Notes under the pieces: generated by a model | What the model saw: the letters and a program-made list of their open reading frames with translations, nothing else | The model's database searches: none | Told to the model about the DNA's origin: nothing | Made by a program: the position numbers and the translations under genes | Shown: in pieces, positions 17,298 to 64,000 of the stretch | Position numbering within the stretch: the stretch's first letter is position 1 | Layout: each line of letters begins with the position of its first letter | IMG/VR virus record: IMGVR_UViG_3300041583_000371 | Coordinates: 18,992 to 82,991 of that record | Length of the DNA: 64,000 nt | Reading direction: 5' to 3' (one strand) | Source of the DNA: a virus

Positions 17298-18287
17298 ATG
17301 AACTATCGTAAACTACATGACAAATTTATAAATTATTTTATAAATACCGCCCCTAAAGAAAGGTTAATGGCAAAAAATAATATAGACAAAAGGCTTGATA
17401 AAGAGAATTTATATGTGGAGATTCATCATATAATTCCTAAACATGATGGTGGGTGCGATTCGCCACATAATCTTGTTACTCTATTACCCGAAGAACACGT
17501 CTTCATACATAAGCTAAGATACAAGGCTTACGGTCAAAGAGGTGATATGCTTTCTGTTAGGTTTGTTCTTAATGGTATGAAAAGCAATGCTAGATTTAAT
17601 GTTGATGGGTCTAACATGCACCTTACTAAGTATATATTAGGCGGATATGCGTTCATAAAAAGTAATTCATCTGAATTCAGAAAAAAAGTTGGGTGGCATA
17701 CGCCAAATGGAGCTAAAAAAATATCCGAATCGAGGAAAGGCAATATGCCAGTGAAAGATGTTGATACTTTAAAAATTATAGGTTCAGTAAGTTGCCAACA
17801 CCCTAAAGTGATATCGGGTCAGTGGGTCCACCATAGTAAAGGTGTAAAATACACAGATGAAAGAAAATTATCTATGGTAAATGGTAGTGGGGATAAAAAT
17901 AATAACTATTCTGGTTATGATGATGACCAACTCATTTTAAACTTTATCGAAATATGCAATAAATTAGGATATATACCAGGTCATAAAACAGCAACAGATT
18001 TTGGGGTTGAAAATAATATATATTTTCCTAAGTCAATAAAAGATTTTAGGTTTGATGGAGATGGCTTTCGTGGTATGATACAAATAGTGGAAGAAAAAAC
18101 AGGTCTAAAATATGACCCATACTATACCAGAAGATCTGGTCGTGTGAAAATAATAAGCGGAAAACGTTGTTGGGTTACTGACGGCGTTAATAGCAAATCA
18201 ATCTCTTTTATTGATTTGAATGAATATAATCTAATAGGATGGAAAAAAGGAAGAACATTATATGGCAAAAGTAATAAAATTAAATAA
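17298..18287 (+). CDS. HNH homing endonuclease lying between split-intein halves
   Basis: 329 aa free-standing protein. HNH core at about residues 38-75: VEIHHIIPKHDGGCDSPHNL then EEHVFIHKL, with the His-His pair, Asn and final His of the family. The C-terminal part contains CWVTDGVNSKSI and GWKKGR, a module repeated in T4-type homing endonucleases that probably contacts DNA. It is translated separately (own RBS under the hairpin at 17253) and its last 26 bp overlap the start of the C-intein/nrdA half. It likely promotes spread of the split-intein insertion between nrdA alleles. Confidence 0.92.
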   Translation: MNYRKLHDKFINYFINTAPKERLMAKNNIDKRLDKENLYVEIHHIIPKHDGGCDSPHNLVTLLPEEHVFIHKLRYKAYGQRGDMLSVRFVLNGMKSNARFNVDGSNMHLTKYILGGYAFIKSNSSEFRKKVGWHTPNGAKKISESRKGNMPVKDVDTLKIIGSVSCQHPKVISGQWVHHSKGVKYTDERKLSMVNGSGDKNNNYSGYDDDQLILNFIEICNKLGYIPGHKTATDFGVENNIYFPKSIKDFRFDGDGFRGMIQIVEEKTGLKYDPYYTRRSGRVKIISGKRCWVTDGVNSKSISFIDLNEYNLIGWKKGRTLYGKSNKIK

Positions 18288-54940: not shown

Positions 54941-55581
54941 TGATTATCATCTTCAATGGTCCACCTGGGAGCGGTAAAGACAAGTGCTGCGAACACATAG
55001 AAGAAAAAGGATTTATCCACTTATCTTTCAAAAAAATGCTCTTTGAGAAAACAATAGAGTATTATGGTGTAGATACAGGCTGGTTCTTAGATGAATATAA
55101 CAATCGCGAAATCAAGGAAAGAAAAGAAAATGCTTTAGGTGGATTTTCGAGGCGCGAAGCTATGATTCATGTAAGTGAGAATGTTCTAAAACCAGAATAT
55201 GGTAAAGATTTCTTTGGTATAGAAGCAGCAAAACTGTTAGAAGATGGACTAGATTATTGTTTTAGTGATGGTGGGTTCGCAGAAGAAATACGACCTGTTA
55301 TAAATAAGTGTGGTGCAGATAATATTTGTATAATCCAGCTCACAAGAGATGGCTGTGATTTTTCATCTGATTCAAGAAAATACATTAACGGAAATTTGAT
55401 AGAAAGTTTTGTATTAGGTAAAGCAACCACCATATCAAAATCACACATACTACCCGAAGAGTTTTCAGTAAAAACTTACAGGGTACACAATAACGGGAAT
55501 ATCAAAGAACTATATGGGGCAATCGAACAAATTTGCGAAAAAGAAAGAAGGGGAGCGGGTTCTTATAGAGAACCCCTATGA
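54940..55581 (+). CDS. deoxynucleoside monophosphate kinase-like P-loop protein
   Basis: 213 aa. Walker A FNGPPGSGKDKCCEH (5-19), GFSRREAMIHVSE, YCFSDGGFAEEIRPV (Walker B-like) and IQLTRDGCDFSSDSRKYI (LID-like). This order matches phage dNMP kinases such as T4 gp1. It converts dNMPs to dNDPs, including products of the ThyA/DHFR pathway. It overlaps the next gene by 68 bp, unusually long. Confidence 0.85.
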   Translation: MIIIFNGPPGSGKDKCCEHIEEKGFIHLSFKKMLFEKTIEYYGVDTGWFLDEYNNREIKERKENALGGFSRREAMIHVSENVLKPEYGKDFFGIEAAKLLEDGLDYCFSDGGFAEEIRPVINKCGADNICIIQLTRDGCDFSSDSRKYINGNLIESFVLGKATTISKSHILPEEFSVKTYRVHNNGNIKELYGAIEQICEKERRGAGSYREPL

Positions 55582-55753
55582 TGTTGAATCAGTTTTTGAA
55601 TCTTTAGAAATCGCAGGTAGATATGAAAAAGAATTGATATACATGGATAGGCTAATAGCAAATCTAAGAATTGATTCGGACTGCGATCTAATAAACTTGA
55701 ATTTTAAGATACTAAGTGACTTGGGATTAATTACGATAAAACCAAAAAAATAA
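55514..55753 (+). CDS. small protein of unknown function (79 aa)
   Basis: MGQSNKFAKKKEGERVLIEN, then FESLEIAGRYEKELIYMDRL. Basic start, helical. The start lies deep inside the kinase gene; a shorter form is possible because GGGGAG lies about 30 bp inside. Function unknown. Confidence 0.55.
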   Translation: MGQSNKFAKKKEGERVLIENPYDVESVFESLEIAGRYEKELIYMDRLIANLRIDSDCDLINLNFKILSDLGLITIKPKK

Positions 55754-55776
55754 ATAATGAAATAGGAGTTATAATA

Positions 55777-55986
55777 ATGGCTAACAAATCTTCTGGAAAT
55801 AAGTACACCTCTAAAGGTGAGCGCAACAACGTATCTAAGTCAACACTTTTGGCTATTAAAAATGACCGCGCGGCATTTGAACAAAATGTAAATATCCAAA
55901 CAGCTTATTGGAAAGGCCAAAATCCTTGGGTTACAATTGACAATCCCAATAAAAGTGAAACTAATAAGCTAAAAGTCCGTGTCTGA
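55777..55986 (+). CDS. small conserved basic protein (69 aa)
   Basis: MANKSSGNKYTSKGERNNVS, then NQ/NPWVTIDNPNKSETNKLK. RBS ATAGGAGTTATAATA. Basic and disorder-prone; a small family seen in related phages. Followed by the 137-bp space with the 30-bp palindrome. Confidence 0.65.
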   Translation: MANKSSGNKYTSKGERNNVSKSTLLAIKNDRAAFEQNVNIQTAYWKGQNPWVTIDNPNKSETNKLKVRV

Positions 55987-56060
55987 GCAAATGATCTTTG
56001 GGGCAACGCAAAAGTAAGACTGAAAAATTCATACAGCATGAAATCTGCGAGCTGATTTAA

Positions 56061-56090
56061 CGCGCAATGTGCAATATTGCACATTGCGCG
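56061..56090 (+). repeat. 30-bp perfect palindrome in an intergenic space
   Basis: Left arm CGCGCAATGTGCAAT (56061-56075), right arm ATTGCACATTGCGCG (56076-56090), no spacer, every base matched. It lies between genes at 55986 and 56124, is GC-richer than its surroundings, and nothing like it was seen elsewhere in the window. Likely a protein-binding site or cruciform element. Confidence 0.9.
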
Positions 56091-56123
56091 AAATGCCAAT
56101 AAGCAGCAAAGAAAGATCAATAA

Positions 56124-56480
56124 ATGGAAGATGACAACGTGGTGTTCTTACCTTTTGGCAAGAAAGATACGGATATTAAGCCCCCAATCAAAACAATAGA
56201 GGATTATGCGGCGAAAGCGGCATCTTACCAGCTTAGTTATTCGCAAGATTTCTGCGAAAGAATTTCTAACATGGTTTTTAAAGAAATGGAACGTGATGGT
56301 ATTGATTTTCAAAATGACGACAGCTTGATACCAAGCACAATATTAGTTATGGAGTCCTTGCTTTCATTGCATATGAAAGCAAATCAACTGGATCATTTTT
56401 TACAAGAATTCGCAGATGAAACTTTTGATCAGACTTCCGACGATTTTGTAGATGATGATGACGATGATGACGATGAATAA
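56124..56480 (+). CDS. protein with acidic tail
   Basis: 118 aa. Helical centre (MESLLSLHMKANQLDHFLQE) and a C-terminal run of Asp ending DDDDDDDDE. RBS AAAGAAAGATC. Poly-Asp tails often bind basic nucleic-acid-binding partners. Function unknown. Confidence 0.65.
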   Translation: MEDDNVVFLPFGKKDTDIKPPIKTIEDYAAKAASYQLSYSQDFCERISNMVFKEMERDGIDFQNDDSLIPSTILVMESLLSLHMKANQLDHFLQEFADETFDQTSDDFVDDDDDDDDE

Positions 56481-56483
56481 TAG

Positions 56484-56510
56484 TTGACTTTCATCAAGTA
56501 TTCGTATAAT
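56484..56510 (+). promoter_or_regulatory. sigma70-type promoter for RNase H
   Basis: TTGACT (56484-56489), 15-bp spacer, TATAAT (56505-56510), 31 bp before the gene at 56541. Confidence 0.65.
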
Positions 56511-56540
56511 ATTGTACAATAAAATTTAATGAGGTTATGA

Positions 56541-57398
56541 ATGATACTATTAGACTACAATCAAGTTATGCTTGCTGCATTATTTCAGAGTATAGGCAAT
56601 CATCACAATGCAGATATAAACGAAGATATGATAAGACATATGTTTCTAAATTCTTTGCGCGCGAATAGAAATAAATTTGCAAAAAATTACGGCGAAATTG
56701 TTATTTGTGCAGATGGAAAAAGTTCTTGGCGCAAAGGCGAATTCCCCTACTATAAAGCAAATAGAAAAAAAACAAGGGATGAATCGGAGTTAGATTGGGG
56801 TGAGCTTTATCGGATTATTGCTTTGGTTCGTGAAGAGCTGGATGAACATTTTCCCTATAAAGTGATGCATTTTGATCATTTGGAAGCAGATGATATCATC
56901 GGTGCTGTATGTGAAGAACTTGGCACAGAATTGAATATGGGCTGTGAGCAAATACTAATTTTGTCTGCCGACAAGGATTTTGTCCAATTACAAAAATATG
57001 CCAACGTTTCTCAATATGACCCAATACAAAAAAAGTCTATTGTACATGGCGATCCATCATCATACCTTTTTGAACATATATTGAAAGGTGATTCTGGTGA
57101 TGGTATACCAAATATTCTTTCAGAAGACAATTGCTTGGTCATTGGCAAAAGACAAAAATCAATGACATCTAAAAAAATTGCCATGTTCACTAACGATTTT
57201 GCAGCCATGGAAGAGACCGAAAAGCATAGATTTATCAGAAACCAAAAGCTTATAGACCTAAGTTTCATTCCTGATAAATATAAAAAAGAGGTTACAGACA
57301 AATACGCAGAACCAAAAACGTTAGGCCGAACTAAGTTGTTTAAATATTTTATTAGTAGAGGCTTACGAAATTTGGTAGAAGATATTGGTGATTTTTAA
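56541..57398 (+). CDS. rnh: RNase H / 5'-3' exonuclease, T4 Rnh-like
   Basis: 285 aa. FEN/PIN nuclease family: ILLDYNQVMLAAL (first Asp), ICADGKSSWRKGEFPYYKAN (helical-arch Arg/Lys and Asp), HLEADDIIGAVCEELG (Glu-Ala-Asp-Asp), ILSADKDFVQLQ, and ILKGDSGDGIPNI (helix-hairpin-helix). It removes RNA primers from lagging strands, in line with primase and ligase of this phage. Confidence 0.94.
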   Translation: MILLDYNQVMLAALFQSIGNHHNADINEDMIRHMFLNSLRANRNKFAKNYGEIVICADGKSSWRKGEFPYYKANRKKTRDESELDWGELYRIIALVREELDEHFPYKVMHFDHLEADDIIGAVCEELGTELNMGCEQILILSADKDFVQLQKYANVSQYDPIQKKSIVHGDPSSYLFEHILKGDSGDGIPNILSEDNCLVIGKRQKSMTSKKIAMFTNDFAAMEETEKHRFIRNQKLIDLSFIPDKYKKEVTDKYAEPKTLGRTKLFKYFISRGLRNLVEDIGDF

Positions 57399-57409
57399 AG
57401 GAGTTAAAT

Positions 57410-57847
57410 ATGTTACTTTCGCTTTCTGAAATAGTGAACAAGGCAGCAGCAATGAAGAAAAATAGTGATAAAGTTGAATGGTTACAAAAAAACAACACAA
57501 TATCACTAAGAACAATACTAAAAATTATGTATGACAAAACTGTGATAGTTTTGCTTCCAAAAGAGCCACCACCGTATAATGATAGTCTTGCTGTTGGTAT
57601 TGAAGGGATGTTATATAAAGAAACCCGCCGACTAAAAATATTTGTGCAGGGCGGTGGTTATGATGATTTAAATCAAACAAAGCGCGAAAACCTTTTTATA
57701 CAGCTTTTGCAAGATGTAGATAAAGGTGATGCAGCACTCTTAGTGAAAATGATTTCACAAAAAGGGTTGACAGGTCTTCCCATTAGTGTTATTAATGAAT
57801 CCTTCCCGATGTTAATCAATGAAAAAGTAGAGAGAACAAATGACTAA
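57410..57847 (+). CDS. conserved T4-like protein (DUF6433-like)
   Basis: 145 aa, RBS AAAGGAGTTAAAT. LSLSEIVNKAAAMKKNSDKV, WLQKNNTISLRTILKIMYDK, then LKIFVQGGGYDDLNQTKREN and FIQLLQDVDKGDAALLVKMI. A highly recognisable family conserved in marine T4-like phages; no defined role. Overlaps the next gene by 8 bp. Confidence 0.8.
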   Translation: MLLSLSEIVNKAAAMKKNSDKVEWLQKNNTISLRTILKIMYDKTVIVLLPKEPPPYNDSLAVGIEGMLYKETRRLKIFVQGGGYDDLNQTKRENLFIQLLQDVDKGDAALLVKMISQKGLTGLPISVINESFPMLINEKVERTND

Positions 57848-58007
57848 ATCCTTCAAAAAATTTCGCGAACAAAGCTGTGACGACGAGTGGACAGAAGATA
57901 ATGAAGCATACTACGGAAAAAAAAGAAAGCTTGAAACCCGTCGGCAACAACGTCGAGATAAGTTTGAAAGTAGGAACTCTGTATTAGACGAAAATCCAGA
58001 AGATTAA
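57840..58007 (+). CDS. small charged protein (55 aa)
   Basis: MTKSFKKFREQSCDDEWTED, then RKLETRRQQRRDKFESRN. An acidic patch followed by a basic helix. Contains an intact A8 run in frame. Function unknown, but co-translated with the DUF6433-like gene, as in related phages to my memory. Confidence 0.65.
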   Translation: MTKSFKKFREQSCDDEWTEDNEAYYGKKRKLETRRQQRRDKFESRNSVLDENPED

Positions 58008-58022
58008 AATTAAGGGTATATC

Positions 58023-58502
58023 ATGAAAAAACAAAAAATCTTTATCGATCTTGATGGTGTAATGGCCGATTTCGATAAACACTTCCCAGAAGCTTTTGGT
58101 GTTGATAAAGACACATTGTCTGATATTGAAATGTGGGCGATGATCAACTCCAATCCAACATTCTTCTTAGATTTGCCATTGTGTGTGGGTGCAAAAGACT
58201 TTTTCGAGTCTGTTGAACACAAAGACCCTATTATCTTAACCGCATGTCCAAAAAGTAATTATACGGTTGCAGCGACACAAAAGCGGGAATGGGTTCGTAA
58301 TAATCTTTCCAAAGATGTTCTCGTAATGCCTATCATGGGTGGAAAAAACAAATGTCTATTCATGCATAGTGCTGGGGATCTACTTATTGACGATTTCGAA
58401 AAAAACTGTAAACCTTGGGATGATATGGGTGGAATTTCTATCACGCATAGAAATTTTGGAGATACTGTTGCAGAAATGAAATGGTTTGGTTTTGATGTTT
58501 GA
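58023..58502 (+). CDS. 5'(3')-deoxyribonucleotidase-like HAD phosphatase
   Basis: 159 aa. FIDLDGVMADFDKHFPEAFG (motif I, with the D-x-D-x-V/T layout of 5'-nucleotidases), LTACPKSN (motif II), KR.. Lys region (ATQKREWVRNNL) and DLLIDDFEKNCKPW (motif III). Removes phosphate from (deoxy)nucleoside monophosphates. Fits pool balancing with the thymidylate pathway. Confidence 0.87.
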   Translation: MKKQKIFIDLDGVMADFDKHFPEAFGVDKDTLSDIEMWAMINSNPTFFLDLPLCVGAKDFFESVEHKDPIILTACPKSNYTVAATQKREWVRNNLSKDVLVMPIMGGKNKCLFMHSAGDLLIDDFEKNCKPWDDMGGISITHRNFGDTVAEMKWFGFDV

Positions 58503-59079
58503 AAATGTAATTTTGGCTGATTATGATGGTGTGTTAGGGTATTGGGCACACTCTTTTGATTTGTGGATGCGCCGCAGTGACTACATCATCAAAAATTACG
58601 AAGCTTATGATATAGAGCATCGTTACGGTATTAGTTTAGATGAATCTCTTTTCTTGATTCAGTGTTTTGATGAAAGCCCTATACTTGGCAAACTTCCACC
58701 ATATAAGGATGCAATTAAGTACGTCAAAAAGCTTCATGAAGGACATGGGTATGTTTTTCATATCATATCTGCTGTTCCAAGCACTACTAAAGTATATAAT
58801 TTGAGGCTAGAAAATATTCACAATTTGTTTGGTAATACTGCCGTAGAAAGCGTTATTTTGTGTGACAACAGTTTGAACAAGAAAAAACATCTCGAATTTT
58901 ACAAAGGTAGTGGGTGCTATTGGATTGAAGATGTCCCTGCTAATGCAGAATATGGGTTGCTTTATGGTCTTGAACCCATAATTATGGAACAGCCTTATAA
59001 TAAAAGTTATGAAAATCCACATATGATAAAAAAAGTTCAAAATTGGAAAGAAATATACCATATTATTACTGGAGAGTAA
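58495..59079 (+). CDS. HAD-like phosphatase of unknown substrate
   Basis: 194 aa from ATG 58495, overlapping the previous gene. ILADYDGVLGYWAHSFDLWM (motif I), FHIISAVPS (motif II) and CYWIEDVPANAEYG (acidic motif). A second HAD enzyme next to the nucleotidase, with a larger cap (about 25-85). Substrate unknown. Confidence 0.82.
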   Translation: MFENVILADYDGVLGYWAHSFDLWMRRSDYIIKNYEAYDIEHRYGISLDESLFLIQCFDESPILGKLPPYKDAIKYVKKLHEGHGYVFHIISAVPSTTKVYNLRLENIHNLFGNTAVESVILCDNSLNKKKHLEFYKGSGCYWIEDVPANAEYGLLYGLEPIIMEQPYNKSYENPHMIKKVQNWKEIYHIITGE

Positions 59080-59126
59080 TCTTATATTTGATAAATAAGA
59101 TTGTAGATCATACAAGTGACCTTTGA

Positions 59127-59158
59127 AAGGCGATCTGCATTAGGTCGCCTTATTTTTT
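59127..59158 (+). terminator. intrinsic terminator
   Basis: AAGGCGA (59127-59133) with TCGCCTT (59145-59151), 11-base loop, then a T-rich tail to 59158, after the HAD gene. Confidence 0.8.
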
Positions 59159-59172
59159 ATATAGGAGATATG

Positions 59173-59409
59173 ATGCCAATCTATTCGATTCGTAATAATG
59201 AGACTAAAGAAGAATATGAAGTTACCGTAAAGCTTTCCGAGCTTGAGGTATATCTTAAAGACAACCCCCATTTACAGCAAATTTTCAACAAGTTTCCAGG
59301 TATTGGTGACTCAGTACGTCTTGGGATTAGGAGGCCAGACGACAATTTTCGTGATGTTCTAAAAAAAGCTAAATCTGCCCACAAATATAGTACGGTTAAC
59401 GACTTCTAA
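59173..59409 (+). CDS. small conserved T4-like protein (FmdB-like, Cys-less)
   Basis: 78 aa from ATG 59173 (GGAG six bases before). MPIYSIRNNETKEEYEVTVK, LKDNPHLQQIFNKFPGIGDS, RLGIRRPDDNFRDVLKK. The first part resembles the FmdB zinc-ribbon fold without Cys; the family is common in T4-like phages. Role unknown. Confidence 0.75.
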   Translation: MPIYSIRNNETKEEYEVTVKLSELEVYLKDNPHLQQIFNKFPGIGDSVRLGIRRPDDNFRDVLKKAKSAHKYSTVNDF

Positions 59410-59435
59410 ATAAAAGAAGGCAAATAGGAGATTTT

Positions 59436-60167
59436 ATGACTAAACATATGGCAAAGCGCAAGCGCATACAAATCACAAAAGAAACTGACCAACTAGTTAA
59501 TACTAAGTTTGCAATGAAAAAAATAAATCCAATGACTGACAACCAAGCCAATTTGTTTGATTTATTTGATGAAGGCAAGCATATATTAGCAATAGGAAGT
59601 GCAGGGACAGGTAAGACATATATTTCTTTGTGGTTGGCCTTAAAATCAGTTATGTCAGGTAAAGAGCAGAAACAAATAATCATAGTCCGTTCATCTGTGC
59701 AATCAAGAGAGCAAGGCCATATGCCAGGCAACGCTTCAGAAAAAATGACATATTTTGAAATGCCATACATAGACATAGTAAATGATCTTTTCGAAAGGGG
59801 TGATGGTTATTCCATCATGAAACAGAAAGGGATGATCAAATTTATGAGTACATCGTTTATTCGTGGCTTGACATTTGACAATTCAATAATTATAGTGGAT
59901 GAAATACAAAACATGACGGATAGTGAAATAAACACTATCATGACAAGAGTTGGAAAAAATTCCAGAATTGTTCTTTGTGGCGATGTTAGACAAGATGATC
60001 TCGTCTTGTCTAAAAACAGAGCTGATGTTTCTGGATTGAGCAAATTTATTAGGATTGCCCGAAAAATACCTTCCTTTGACATTATCGAGTTTGGGGTTGA
60101 CGACATTATAAGAAGTGGTTTAGTCCGTGAATACATAATTGCGCGTGAAGCAGAACTAAGTAACTAG
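59436..60167 (+). CDS. phoH: PhoH-like P-loop ATPase
   Basis: 243 aa, RBS AATAGGAGATTTT. NQANLFDLFDEGKHILAIGS, Walker A GSAGTGKTY (about 54-62), RSSVQSREQGHMPGNASEKM, Walker B IIIVDEIQNMT and LCGDVRQDDL. Full PhoH core in the size range of phage PhoH. Widely present in marine phages; ATPase probably acting on RNA, exact role unsettled. Confidence 0.95.
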   Translation: MTKHMAKRKRIQITKETDQLVNTKFAMKKINPMTDNQANLFDLFDEGKHILAIGSAGTGKTYISLWLALKSVMSGKEQKQIIIVRSSVQSREQGHMPGNASEKMTYFEMPYIDIVNDLFERGDGYSIMKQKGMIKFMSTSFIRGLTFDNSIIIVDEIQNMTDSEINTIMTRVGKNSRIVLCGDVRQDDLVLSKNRADVSGLSKFIRIARKIPSFDIIEFGVDDIIRSGLVREYIIAREAELSN

Positions 60168-60177
60168 TAAATATAAC

Positions 60178-60204
60178 GTGGTGCAAGAACAATTCTTGCA
60201 CCAC
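60178..60204 (+). terminator. 12-bp hairpin after phoH
   Basis: GTGGTGCAAGAA (60178-60189) with TTCTTGCACCAC (60193-60204), three-base loop, 10 bp after the phoH stop. No T tract follows, so it may stabilise an mRNA end. Confidence 0.7.
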
Positions 60205-60224
60205 AAATAAAAAGGTAAGCAAAA

Positions 60225-60530
60225 ATGCCAGCATTAGCATTATGTGATGTAGATTTTATATCCACTGGACATGCCTGTGACACAACAGCGAAAATACAAG
60301 GAAATCTTCAAAGTAAAGTATCCGTAAATGGAAAGTTTGTTGCTGTTTTAGGTGACTCTATTTTTCCACATGATATTCTTATAAATTCTAGTTGTTTACC
60401 ACACAATGCGTTCATAACAGGCGGTTCTTCTAAAGTTTTTATAAATGGCATACCAGTGTCGCGCGTAGGTGATTCTGCGGATCAGGGAGCGATAATATCA
60501 GGATCCGCAAGTATAACTGTTGGATCATGA
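60225..60530 (+). CDS. PAAR-domain tail-spike tip protein
   Basis: 101 aa, RBS AAAAGGTAAGC. CDVDFISTGHACDTT, the LGDSIFPHD and IPVSRVGDSADQG segments and repeating short Gly-Asp turns are the PAAR pattern: a cone that caps the membrane-piercing spike of contractile tails, as T4 gp5.4 does. A virion gene isolated among replication genes, as gp5.4 also is in T4-like genomes. Confidence 0.9.
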   Translation: MPALALCDVDFISTGHACDTTAKIQGNLQSKVSVNGKFVAVLGDSIFPHDILINSSCLPHNAFITGGSSKVFINGIPVSRVGDSADQGAIISGSASITVGS

Positions 60531-60531
60531 C

Positions 60532-61011
60532 ATGAAAACACTTAAAGAATTCATGCAAGAAAGAAAGAAAGTACATTGCACTTATTTACGATGATGAGAC
60601 CCAAGTAAAACTTCGTGAATGGGCGATAAATAATGGGTTCGATCTTACCATAAACTATGATGGTGAAGCTCAGGAAGAAAAAGATTTCGATTTTCACACC
60701 ACTATTTTTTATACCACTAATGAAGTATACTTAAAAAATAAAACAATCCCAGAACCCCCTACAGAAGTAAAAGTATCGGGAATAAAATTTCTTGGTGTGA
60801 ATCAAGATGTGTCCGTATTGTCTGTATCATTGTCAGGTAGAATAAAAAAATTAGAGGTGATTTCGAGATGATGGGCTTGTTAGATAAATGGCCTTCCTAC
60901 AAACCGCACATTTCATTGTCATATCGTAATGACAAAGTATCACCGGATAATGTAGTATTGCCAGATTTTAAGCTAAAATTCGATAAAATAGTAATAGAAG
61001 GATTGAAGTGA
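60532..61011 (+). pseudogene. 2H phosphoesterase (possibly Acb1-like) with two frameshifts
   Basis: ATG 60532 starts in one frame and stops after 20 codons. The +1 frame from ~60572 gives YIALIYDDETQVKLREWAIN and FDFHTTIFYTTNEV (first H-T-T). After the A7 run (60844-60850) the -1 frame gives GLLDKWPSYKPHISLSYRND (second H-I-S) to TGA 61011. Correcting a (GAAA)3 to (GAAA)2 and A7 to A8 restores one ~159-aa protein with both 2H motifs. The H-T-T and PHISLSY spacing recalls Acb1, the phage enzyme that degrades CBASS cyclic nucleotides; this is inference. Confidence 0.7.
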
Positions 61012-61667
61012 ATTTTGTACATGATGGTGCTTTTACATTTCCAGAGTTGAGTGTAGTTACTACCCCAAACGGAAGATTTTATACAACACCCCAAGGCAAC
61101 AGTTACCCATCTGTCACTACTGTAATCAGTAAGGGCACTGACCAATCTTGGAAAGATAAATGGGTTAAAAGAGTTGGCGAAGATGAAGCCAAAAAGATTT
61201 CTAAGATTGCATCCAGAAGAGGCGAATCCGTCCACGAGATAATCGAAAAATACTTAAAAAACGATCCAAATTACAAACAAGGCAAAAATATATTTGACAT
61301 TCAAAATTTTGATGATATAAAAGATATATTAGATTCGAATATAGGAAACATAGAAAAGCTCGAAGTCCCTTTATGGTCAAATTTTCTGCGAGTTGCGGGC
61401 AGGGTAGACTGCATTGCGCAATGGAATGGAACTTGGTCTATTGTAGATTTCAAAACGAGCAAAAAGCAAAAAACAAAGGATCAAGTATTTCATTATATGT
61501 GCCAAGAAGCAGCGTATGCTTACATGTTTTTTGAGATGACTGGAAAGCCGATTGGTCAGATAGTGACTATAATTACGGTAGATGATGATCAGCCACAAGT
61601 GTTTGTTGAGAGAACAAAGTCTTACCTTCCACATTTTATAAAAATAAGAGAATCAATAGAAATTTAG
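61008..61667 (+). CDS. RecB/Cas4-like PD-(D/E)XK nuclease
   Basis: 219 aa, GTG start in GTGA overlap. RRGESVHEIIEKYL (motif I His/Glu), VAGRVDCIAQWNGTWSIVDF and KTSKK (motifs II-III: Asp ... D-F-K-T) and QEAAYAYMFFEM (QxxxY). This is the RecB-type exonuclease core of ~220 residues, as in phage and mitochondrial MGME1-type enzymes. Likely ssDNA exonuclease in recombination or host DNA degradation. Confidence 0.88.
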   Translation: MNFVHDGAFTFPELSVVTTPNGRFYTTPQGNSYPSVTTVISKGTDQSWKDKWVKRVGEDEAKKISKIASRRGESVHEIIEKYLKNDPNYKQGKNIFDIQNFDDIKDILDSNIGNIEKLEVPLWSNFLRVAGRVDCIAQWNGTWSIVDFKTSKKQKTKDQVFHYMCQEAAYAYMFFEMTGKPIGQIVTIITVDDDQPQVFVERTKSYLPHFIKIRESIEI

Positions 61668-61676
61668 GGGAACAAC

Positions 61677-61979
61677 ATGAAATATCTGATAATTTGCGAA
61701 AAAAGAGGTGTCTTTTTAGGTACGTACTCACGACTTGGATTTTTCAGTTTACTTGACAATTTTGGTTCTTACAAAGCACCTGCCTTTGATAGCATAAAAG
61801 ATGCCATAGATTATGCAGAAGAATTTATGAATATTGACAAAACACAGAAATTCATGTATCCTTCATTTAGCACAAAAGAAAAACACATATCAATAATTGA
61901 CATTGCAAGATCCGGCTATGGCCAATATGCTGGTGATATGATGTCAAACTTACCAAATTATTCTGAAACCATGCACTGA
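61677..61979 (+). CDS. protein of unknown function
   Basis: 100 aa, RBS AGGGGAACAAC. KYLIICEKRGVFLGTYSRLG, FDSIKDAIDYAEEFMN. An alpha/beta protein with a pattern of a short beta-hairpin followed by a helix. Function unknown. Confidence 0.6.
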   Translation: MKYLIICEKRGVFLGTYSRLGFFSLLDNFGSYKAPAFDSIKDAIDYAEEFMNIDKTQKFMYPSFSTKEKHISIIDIARSGYGQYAGDMMSNLPNYSETMH

Positions 61980-61992
61980 AGTAAGAAACATG

Positions 61993-62021
61993 TTGACACG
62001 ATTGTGATTATAATATATACA
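61993..62021 (+). promoter_or_regulatory. sigma70-type promoter
   Basis: TTGACA (61993-61998), 17-bp spacer, TATACA (62016-62021), 26 bp before ATG 62048. Confidence 0.7.
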
Positions 62022-62047
62022 TGTTAAGTATAGAAATTAGGAAAAAT

Positions 62048-62392
62048 ATGAAACCAGTAGCAGCAACTATAAACGCATTGATTCAAGGGTTTGCCTTCGT
62101 AGGCACCTTTCAATTTAACATAGTATGGGCAATCTATCCTCTTATAATGCTAACAGTATTAATTATACTGGCACAGACAATAACATCAGCATTTGCAATA
62201 GCAAACCTTGAAAACGCTATCAAAACACCACCTACCGACATCCATGTTGGTCTAAATGTTCTTGTTGGTTTTATGTATGCTGCATCTACATATCTTCTTT
62301 TCAGCTTAGGATATGTTTTTTTTGCGGGTGTTTTGTCAACGCATGTTGCGATATATCTTTTGACTATACTCTTTAAAAAGGAGACCAAATGA
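62048..62392 (+). CDS. multi-pass membrane protein of unknown function
   Basis: 114 aa from ATG 62048 (RBS AGGAAAAAT). Three or four hydrophobic helices: FVGTFQFNIVWAIYPLIMLT, LIILAQTITSAFAIANLE, FMYAASTYLLFSLGYVFFAG. ATGA overlap with the next gene. Confidence 0.65.
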   Translation: MKPVAATINALIQGFAFVGTFQFNIVWAIYPLIMLTVLIILAQTITSAFAIANLENAIKTPPTDIHVGLNVLVGFMYAASTYLLFSLGYVFFAGVLSTHVAIYLLTILFKKETK

Positions 62393-62832
62393 CAGCTGTA
62401 TTATACATAATTGCAAGAAATGACTTGGATTCTATGAACAGCGGCAAATTGGCTGCGCAATGTTCACATGCCTCTAATGCTTTCATCAACCATGCAAGAA
62501 AACATAAAATGCCAAATTATTCTGTAACTACCACAGCAGTATTGGGCGACAACTTTATTGATGACACCACAGCATGGGAAAATGAAACCACACAAGGATT
62601 TGGAACTGTCCTTGTACTTGAAGGAAGTATGAATAAAATCAAACCAGTTGTTGAAATCTTTAAGCGTTTGAACTATATTGCTGGTATCGTACACGATCCA
62701 ACATATCCTATTTTAGATGGGCAAGTCGTACACCACATACCGCTTGATACTTGTTCATACATTTTTGTACCAAACAAAGAAGAGGATATACTTGCTAAGA
62801 CACTACTACAAGATTTTACACTACACAAATAA
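62389..62832 (+). CDS. peptidyl-tRNA hydrolase type 2 (Pth2-like)
   Basis: 147 aa. LYIIARNDLDSMNSGKLAAQ, CSHASNAFINHARK at the N terminus is the Pth2 signature (GK-aaQ-aHA). Then FGTVLVLEGSMNKIKPVVEI, GIVHDPTYPI and a C-terminal strand with TCSYIFVPNKEE. It has an insertion near 55-75 unlike archaeal Pth2. Would recycle peptidyl-tRNA, useful in intense late translation. Confidence 0.85.
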   Translation: MTAVLYIIARNDLDSMNSGKLAAQCSHASNAFINHARKHKMPNYSVTTTAVLGDNFIDDTTAWENETTQGFGTVLVLEGSMNKIKPVVEIFKRLNYIAGIVHDPTYPILDGQVVHHIPLDTCSYIFVPNKEEDILAKTLLQDFTLHK

Positions 62833-62855
62833 ATAACCCTACAGGAGATTACATT

Positions 62856-63104
62856 ATGAACGATAACGCATATTCGGTAACAGCTGACGAACTACGTCAA
62901 ATCATCGAACAATACGAAACCATGCAATCTGAAAAACAAGACGTGAATGAACGCCAAAAAGAATTAATGGCAGACGCAAAAGGACGTGGATATGACACAA
63001 AAATTCTAAAGAAAATTGTAGCAATTCGCAAACGCAACCGTGACGATATCGCGGAAGAAGAAGCCGTACAAGAAATGTACATGACTGCATTGGGAATGCT
63101 TTAA
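62856..63104 (+). CDS. gapR: GapR-like nucleoid protein (DUF2312)
   Basis: 82 aa, RBS ACAGGAGATTACATT. ADELRQIIEQYETMQSEKQD, VNERQKELMADAKGRGYDTK, ILKKIVAIRKRN, MYMTALGML: the complete DUF2312/GapR consensus. GapR in alphaproteobacteria forms a clamp on overtwisted DNA ahead of replication and transcription. A phage copy suggests handling of supercoils on its own genome, and an alphaproteobacterial host. Confidence 0.95.
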   Translation: MNDNAYSVTADELRQIIEQYETMQSEKQDVNERQKELMADAKGRGYDTKILKKIVAIRKRNRDDIAEEEAVQEMYMTALGML

Positions 63105-63132
63105 CAATGTATGGGATCGGAATAAATGTGTT

Positions 63133-64000
63133 ATGAGTAGAAAAATTCTGGTCCCACCAAAGCAAGAGCTAATAGATATCTATGCCAAAGAAGGAAATAC
63201 CATTTCTTCTTTGGCAAGACTATACAACACCTCTAACCCTACAATGAGAAGTTGGCTTGTAAAATATGAAATATATCTAAAAGACCAAAAACAAGCATCA
63301 ACAGAGGCCAACAATAGGCATAAAATACATTCAAAACCAACAAAAGAAGTATTGACAACCCTATATGAAGAATCTACTATAAAGTCGCTATCATCATATT
63401 ACAACGTGAGTCTTGCAACTATATATGAATGGCTATTAGAATATGACATACAAACGCGAACATTGTCTGAATCAACAAAAAAATGCAAGCAAATTCAATA
63501 TGAAAATATTCAGTTCACAAAAGAATATCTCGTATCGCAGTATGATACCAAACAGTCTATATTAGTGTTGGCAGAAAAACTTGGCGTATCAAAAACACAT
63601 ATTAGAAAACAACTTTTGATAAATGGCATAAAAATATTGCCCATCGATCCATCTTGGAGAAGCAAAGCCGAAATATCACTTTATGAATATCTCATAGAAA
63701 ACTTCCCCAATGACAACTGGAAAAACAATGATAAGTCTATAATACAACCATTTGAATTAGATATTGTAAATGTTGACAAGAAGATTGCTATTGAATATTG
63801 TGGCCTGTATTGGCATTCAGAAGCATCAAGTGGAAAGAAAAAAAACTACCACAAGAATAAATATCTGATGTGCAAAGAAAAGGGATATAAACTTGTAACC
63901 ATACTCGAGTCTGATAATATGGAAAAAGTCAAAAATCTACTGCTAAAACTCTTTGGAAAAACTATAAAAATCGGCGCAAGAAATACTACTTTGAAAGCAC
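63133..64000 (+). CDS. multi-HTH homing endonuclease of Vsr/EDxHD type (partial, runs off end)
   Basis: ATG 63133, open to the last base (289 codons seen). Three homeodomain-like HTH repeats: ELIDIYAKEGNTISSLARLY, VLTTLYEESTIKSLSSYYNV and LVSQYDTKQSILVLAEKLGV. Then a nuclease domain with AEISLYEYLIENFP (Glu), FELDIVNVDKKIAIEYCGLY (Asp and Glu), YWHSE (x-H-S) and NKYLMCKEKGYKLVTILESD. This is the EDxHD/Vsr-like family described with split inteins and group I introns, so a fractured or intron-bearing gene may lie next to it beyond the window. Confidence 0.88.
   Translation, partial: MSRKILVPPKQELIDIYAKEGNTISSLARLYNTSNPTMRSWLVKYEIYLKDQKQASTEANNRHKIHSKPTKEVLTTLYEESTIKSLSSYYNVSLATIYEWLLEYDIQTRTLSESTKKCKQIQYENIQFTKEYLVSQYDTKQSILVLAEKLGVSKTHIRKQLLINGIKILPIDPSWRSKAEISLYEYLIENFPNDNWKNNDKSIIQPFELDIVNVDKKIAIEYCGLYWHSEASSGKKKNYHKNKYLMCKEKGYKLVTILESDNMEKVKNLLLKLFGKTIKIGARNTTLKA

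Follow-up and report, generated by a model that had tools for sequence, protein, structure and literature searches.

The DNA analyzed here (the window) is a stretch of 64,000 nucleotides that makes up the 3′-terminal part of a virus record of 82,991 bp. At its 3′ end, on the plus strand and downstream of genes for a peptidyl-tRNA hydrolase and a GapR-like protein, lies a reading frame of 289 codons that is open up to the end of the contig (Table 1). Because the window is the 3′ end of the record, no sequence can be read past position 64,000. The rest of the window's own contig was searched for gp23, the major capsid gene found downstream in relatives. It was not found there, and the window allele cannot be completed for this reason. 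The remainder of the gene was read in three near-identical contigs (L002, L003 and L004), which are 97-98% identical to the window protein. The complete protein is 462 aa long in L002 and L003, the L004 copy being without its 5′ end, and it extends 173 aa past the window edge as a second domain. The gene order 3′ of it in all three contigs is a GIY-YIG-like ORF, gp23, gp22 and gp21, the last three on the minus strand, with gp23 whole (439 aa) in L002 and L004. The downstream context of the window allele, which itself ends inside the gene, is thus taken from these relatives. The matches of the GIY-YIG-like ORF are weak (Pfam E 0.047; PHROG homing endonuclease E 1e-4). Farther on, between gp22 and gp21, L004 carries an intact 597-aa Hef-type gene with DUF7487/KYG repeats (L004:4746-6539, minus strand). 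In L002 this gene is mostly deleted, and a remnant with a 126-aa ORF is left (L002:10858-11268, minus strand).

Two other window genes are of note. Positions 17298-18287 hold a further gene of homing type, with a match to PHROG_655 (homing endonuclease, E 8e-17); it is probably the first nuclease meant by the original prediction when it counted the gene at the window edge as the second. The ORF at positions 35801-36526 matches phrog_10081 (E 1e-38), a PHROG with the annotation transposase, and lies on what is a T4-like phage contig.

Table 1. Features at the 3′ end of the window and in the near-identical contigs that complete the gene
Feature	Location	Strand	Evidence or remark
PTH2-type peptidyl-tRNA hydrolase gene	window 62389..62832	+	PF01981 E 3.4e-8
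gapR-like gene, 82 aa, intact, left neighbor of the insertion	window 62856..63104	+	PF10073 E 9.5e-27
Hef-type homing endonuclease gene, 5′ 868 bases (289/462 codons)	window 63133..64000	+	cut by contig end
HTH unit 1, aa 10-44	window 63160..63264	+	Pfam HTH_28 above cut-off; AlphaFold three helices
HTH unit 2, aa 71-103	window 63343..63441	+	AlphaFold three helices; sub-threshold Pfam HTH_17
HTH unit 3, aa 130-163	window 63520..63621	+	AlphaFold three helices; sub-threshold Pfam HTH_23
Vsr-like/EDxHD nuclease domain, aa 177-275	window 63661..63957	+	3r3p match; conservation; U5 Hef alignment
First codons of the C-terminal Mom-like/GNAT-fold domain	window 63958..63999	+	remainder of domain beyond contig
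Complete Hef-type gene	L002:6001-7389, L003:1584-2972		462 codons
Full C-terminal domain	L002:6829-7386		phage Mu Mom (8bv8) top PDB hit in Foldseek
GIY-YIG-like ORF, 307 aa	L002:7463-8386	-	between Hef and gp23, hairpin-flanked

Domain organization and kinship of the protein

The protein begins with three HTH units. The first exceeds the Pfam cut-off (28.2 bits versus 25), and the second and third give weak matches below threshold. In the AlphaFold model, which was built with 28 relatives and has a mean pLDDT of 89.9, each of the units is tri-helical. The nuclease follows at about residues 177-275, and a second alpha/beta domain occupies about residues 286-458. The nuclease-core residues are S177..E180, E208-x-D210, E221, W227-H228, H240 and K243. 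No exception to D210, E221, G224, H228 or K243 occurs among 70 non-redundant relatives, 64 of which also keep E180. The sole significant sequence match in the PDB is 3r3p, the EDxHD nuclease I-Bth0305I (E 9e-4 with the single sequence, 2.3e-7 with a profile), in an alignment that spans only the second half of the core (IExxGxYW...K...KGYxxxTIxE). In its Vsr-like nuclease fold and its conserved acidic and histidine residues the domain is of the EDxHD type, whose prototypes in Dassa et al. 2009 are reportedly intron- or intein-associated. The original prediction of three HTH units ahead of a Vsr-like nuclease at the window edge, with an intact GapR gene upstream, is borne out by the AlphaFold units, the 3r3p match, the intact E/D/E/H residues and the complete PF10073 gene of Table 1.

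The segment coding for HTH1-HTH2 is divergent in the comparison with L003. Upstream of window 63211-63360 the two sequences have 2 differences in about 1.6 kb, within this segment they have 10 in 150 bases, and thereafter 1-3 per 150. This divergence may come from recombination between coexisting alleles, from selection in the DNA-recognition part, or from an assembly effect at the contig end.

Relatives of the protein are present in 403 of 50,697 phage records, among them Hef-like genes from phages of Campylobacter, Pseudomonas, Acinetobacter and Vibrio; the match to PHROG_3339 (‘homing endonuclease’) has an E of 2.3e-83. The window protein and Hef of Enterobacteria phage U5 are homologous over nuclease and C-terminal domains alike (30% overall in the alignment; 35%, E 1e-14 by tblastn for the C-terminal domain alone). 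Residues E208, D210, E221, G224, W227, H228, H240 and K243 are common to the two proteins. The target cleaved by U5 Hef is nrdB (review PMC2988022). The window gene has its own ORF between intact conserved genes and is missing in some relatives, as befits a Hef-type gene. Judged from its sequence relationships, it is a free-standing (intronless) Hef-type homing endonuclease gene, U5 Hef being homologous to it in both domains. This homology and the 3r3p profile also agree with the earlier call of a homing-type nuclease with an EDxHD/Vsr-like core. What precedes the nuclease and C-terminal unit varies: it may be an HTH array, KYG/DUF7487 repeats or another N-terminus. As the same unit is joined to differing N-termini, modular DNA recognition is plausible.

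For the C-terminal domain, sequence searches of PDB, Pfam and NCBIfam returned nothing useful, and the Mom/GNAT likeness was seen only by fold and profile. The best PDB match in Foldseek was phage Mu Mom (8bv8, E 2.6e-6), ahead of all GNAT enzymes, and the BFVD comparison likewise returned a Mom. The hhalign comparison of 70 Hef C-termini with seven Mom proteins gave 98.3%, versus 1.0% for the reversed Mom profile and 0.5% for the Hef nuclease domain against Mom. Foldseek and hhalign thus concur in a Mom-like GNAT fold. Hef residues H303, R343, D377 and Y386, kept in 64-69 of the 70 relatives, align with H58, R111, D149 and Y159 of Mom (241-residue numbering), which we take to matter for Mom activity. 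The S124A mutant of Mom is called inactive in its PDB title. Ser124 falls in an hhalign gap, the nearest Hef loop residues being G354, G355, A/V356 and S357, and the VVGG[AV]SKL loop of the Hef domain has no clear equivalent of it. Ser357, present in 55 of the 70 relatives, was considered as the counterpart and rejected, since hhalign leaves the two serines unaligned and 15 of the 70 relatives are without it. The essential serine of Mom is thus not evidently kept in the Hef-type domain. The GNAT-like loop makes acyl-CoA binding by this domain possible; Mom chemistry is not implied.

The likeness to Mom raises the possibility of a restriction-modification-like fusion, whereby the Mom-like domain would modify the phage's own DNA and the nuclease would attack unmodified DNA of the host or a competitor. 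The homology by fold and profile and the four aligned, near-invariant active-site positions are in keeping with such a role, but the Ser124 gap argues against it, and the insertion at a single locus, the empty sites described below and the U5 Hef homology all point to homing. Mom-REase fusions in jumbo phages have indeed been read as restriction-modification, with five momylating enzymes counted in PA5oct (PMC7824862). In Pseudomonas phage Paride (L092) the Hef-type C-terminal domain occurs five times, every copy within an ORF of 509-614 aa. As PA5oct presumably belongs to the same genus as Paride, its five ‘momylating enzymes’ appear, by this analogy, to be Hef-type homing genes, a further point against restriction-modification, which we consider quite improbable for the window gene. 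One Acinetobacter record is annotated ‘putative nuclease/acetyltransferase’, and no paper linking Hef to Mom turned up in our literature searches.

The insertion beside gp23

Some 50 related contigs have gapR and gp23 in convergent orientation, and the interval between them exists in several states. Empty sites, with a gapR-gp23 spacing of 79-89 bp, are seen in L014-L018, L066, L068-L073 and L076, and a terminator-type RNA hairpin is present in the empty spacers. L099 has the Hef gene without the GIY-YIG-like ORF, and L002/L003 have both. The empty, Hef-only and double states therefore indicate a nested order of insertion. The longer gapR-gp23 gaps of other Hef-less relatives contain ordinary phage ORFs and no recognizable homing gene. 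The closest Hef-less relatives found have a gp23 protein identity of only about 72-85%. Empty alleles, which the original prediction had named as something to look for in related phages, are thus found in many relatives.

The same prediction had a second element, namely a fractured or invaded gene, split intein or intron just downstream. An EDxHD nuclease belonging to a split intein, a fractured gene or a group I intron, with the other pieces just past the window, would suit the fold, which is that of the EDxHD prototypes (3r3p match), and the intron or intein association typical of them (PMC3943268). Yet the sequence beyond 64,000, as read in L002, L003 and L004, has neither intein halves nor an intron. 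The downstream genes are continuous and whole in these three contigs, gapR and gp23 are unbroken, and the nuclease is encoded by a separate ORF with start and stop codons of its own. The Rfam search for introns gave no match in L002 or L099 at the gathering threshold, nor in window 55000-64000 at E up to 0.1. This part of the prediction fails for the L002, L003 and L004 alleles, because no split gene, intein or group I intron lies downstream in them, and we regard the reading as extremely unlikely.

A decayed or domesticated homing gene, immobile at a fixed locus and acting, for example, as a regulator of the gapR/gp23 region, was also weighed. Homing genes decay once fixed, and of the related gene between gp22 and gp21 only a remnant is left in L002, as against all 597 aa in L004; moreover, terminators frame the gene in question. 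Set against this, the catalytic residues are intact, the frame is open in the three contigs and in all full-length relatives, and a comparison of L002 with L003 shows constraint on the amino-acid sequence (16 synonymous against 3 non-synonymous codon differences over the full-length gene). Decay or domestication is accordingly an unlikely explanation.

The location of the free-standing gene was compared among relatives gathered by sequence alone. All 15 non-redundant members with the triple-HTH N-terminus are at the gp23 3′ end, 13 of them within 133 bp of gp23 and the other two behind another homing-type gene (a GIY-YIG-like ORF in L097, a second Hef-type ORF in L104). Members with other N-termini are at this site in 12 of the 38 cases with enough flank, a count that includes the second copy of L162, behind another Hef. 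The Fisher p for 15/15 versus 12/38 is 4e-6, with related sequences treated as independent. The orientation to gp23 is convergent in L097-L104 and L110 and co-directional in L105-L107 and L111-L115, where the neighbor is other than gapR. Since both orientations occur and gapR is not adjacent in the co-directional cases, gp23 is the one shared neighbor. Cultivated phages AM101, Kimel, K364 and B23 have the same or nearly the same position. The recurrence of triple-HTH relatives at the same spot in many T4-like phages suggests, as far as sequence can tell, that gp23 is the gene cut by Hef in order to spread. Adjacency to gp23 alone does not prove its cleavage. The T4 table lists the target of segD, between genes 23 and 24, as unknown (PMC2988022).

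Two contigs have more than one Hef-type gene at this site. L104:6001-9046 is a tandem pair of different Hef-type genes beside gp23, the first with the triple-HTH N-terminus and the second with another, and L162 has two Hef-type genes after gp23.

The presence of Hef is patchy on the gp23 tree, with at least six changes needed. For the triple-HTH members the Hef and gp23 trees broadly agree, with a single disagreement. We rejected this conflict as proof of horizontal transfer, as its gp23-side p-AU of 0.148 is not significant. Because the trees broadly agree, part of the location pattern could be due to long periods of vertical inheritance at a single position.

Proposed mechanism and known systems

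We consider it very likely, from the comparisons above, that the window gene is a Hef-type free-standing homing gene, whose product would be guided by its HTH units to cut in or near the 3′ part of gp23 and which would be copied by repair. The HTH array would bring the nuclease to a conserved sequence that lies within the 3′ part of gp23, or close to it, in a co-infecting phage without the Hef gene, and the nuclease would make a break or nick in gp23 or its 3′ flank. Phage recombination would then repair the break with the Hef-bearing genome as template, such that Hef and flanking gp23 sequence would be copied over. The Hef-bearing genome would itself be protected, as the insertion or linked gp23 differences would alter its own site. 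Candidate roles for the C-terminal domain are extra DNA contacts, dimerization or an acyl-CoA-dependent activity. It seems very improbable that the Mom-like domain of Hef-type homing nucleases is catalytically active and acylates DNA close to the target, with a single protein cutting the competitor gp23 and marking the Hef-bearing copy for protection. Were this so, the protein would be a restriction-modification-like homing system in one chain, complete in itself and directed at the capsid gene.

The tie of the triple-HTH Hef subfamily to the gp23 3′ end provides a testable prediction for a poorly studied type of homing nuclease, for which empty, single-insert and double-insert states can be compared. 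The association may also account for some of the localized exchange around gp23, a gene that serves as a standard marker of diversity in T4-like phages. The present analysis further connects Hef-like homing endonucleases with the Mom-REase fusions of jumbo phages, two descriptions that had been apart in the literature searched.

Among known systems, U5 Hef has the homologous nuclease and C-terminal domain and is likewise free-standing between conserved phage genes, whereas its N-terminal part is different, without the triple-HTH array, and it sits between nrdA and nrdB. I-Bth0305I (3r3p, ‘Mobile intron protein’ in its PDB title) has a Vsr-like nuclease domain with an aligned core. It is intron-encoded, presumably within recA, whereas the window gene is free-standing and has the HTH array and the Mom-like domain. 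Phage Mu Mom and the fusions of Mom with an REase in jumbo phages have in common with the window gene the C-terminal fold and the four aligned active-site positions. The window gene differs from Mom in that Ser124 is not evidently conserved, in the fused nuclease and DNA-binding array, and in being mobile and locus-specific.

The nearest parallels in location come from cultivated phages. Hef-like genes at or near the gp23 3′ end are present in the Acinetobacter lazarusviruses AM101 and Kimel, Vibrio phage K364 and Synechococcus phage B23, and homology to the window gene in the nuclease and C-terminal domains was found for all four. F-LimVII of Dickeya phage LIMEstone1 is at or near the same site and is Hef-like by annotation only. 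These gp23-side genes of cultivated phages differ from the window gene in N-terminus or orientation, and in B23 one gene intervenes. T4 segD belongs to an unrelated nuclease family (GIY-YIG), yet it too is a free-standing homing-type gene in the 3′ flank of gp23, oriented opposite to gp23.
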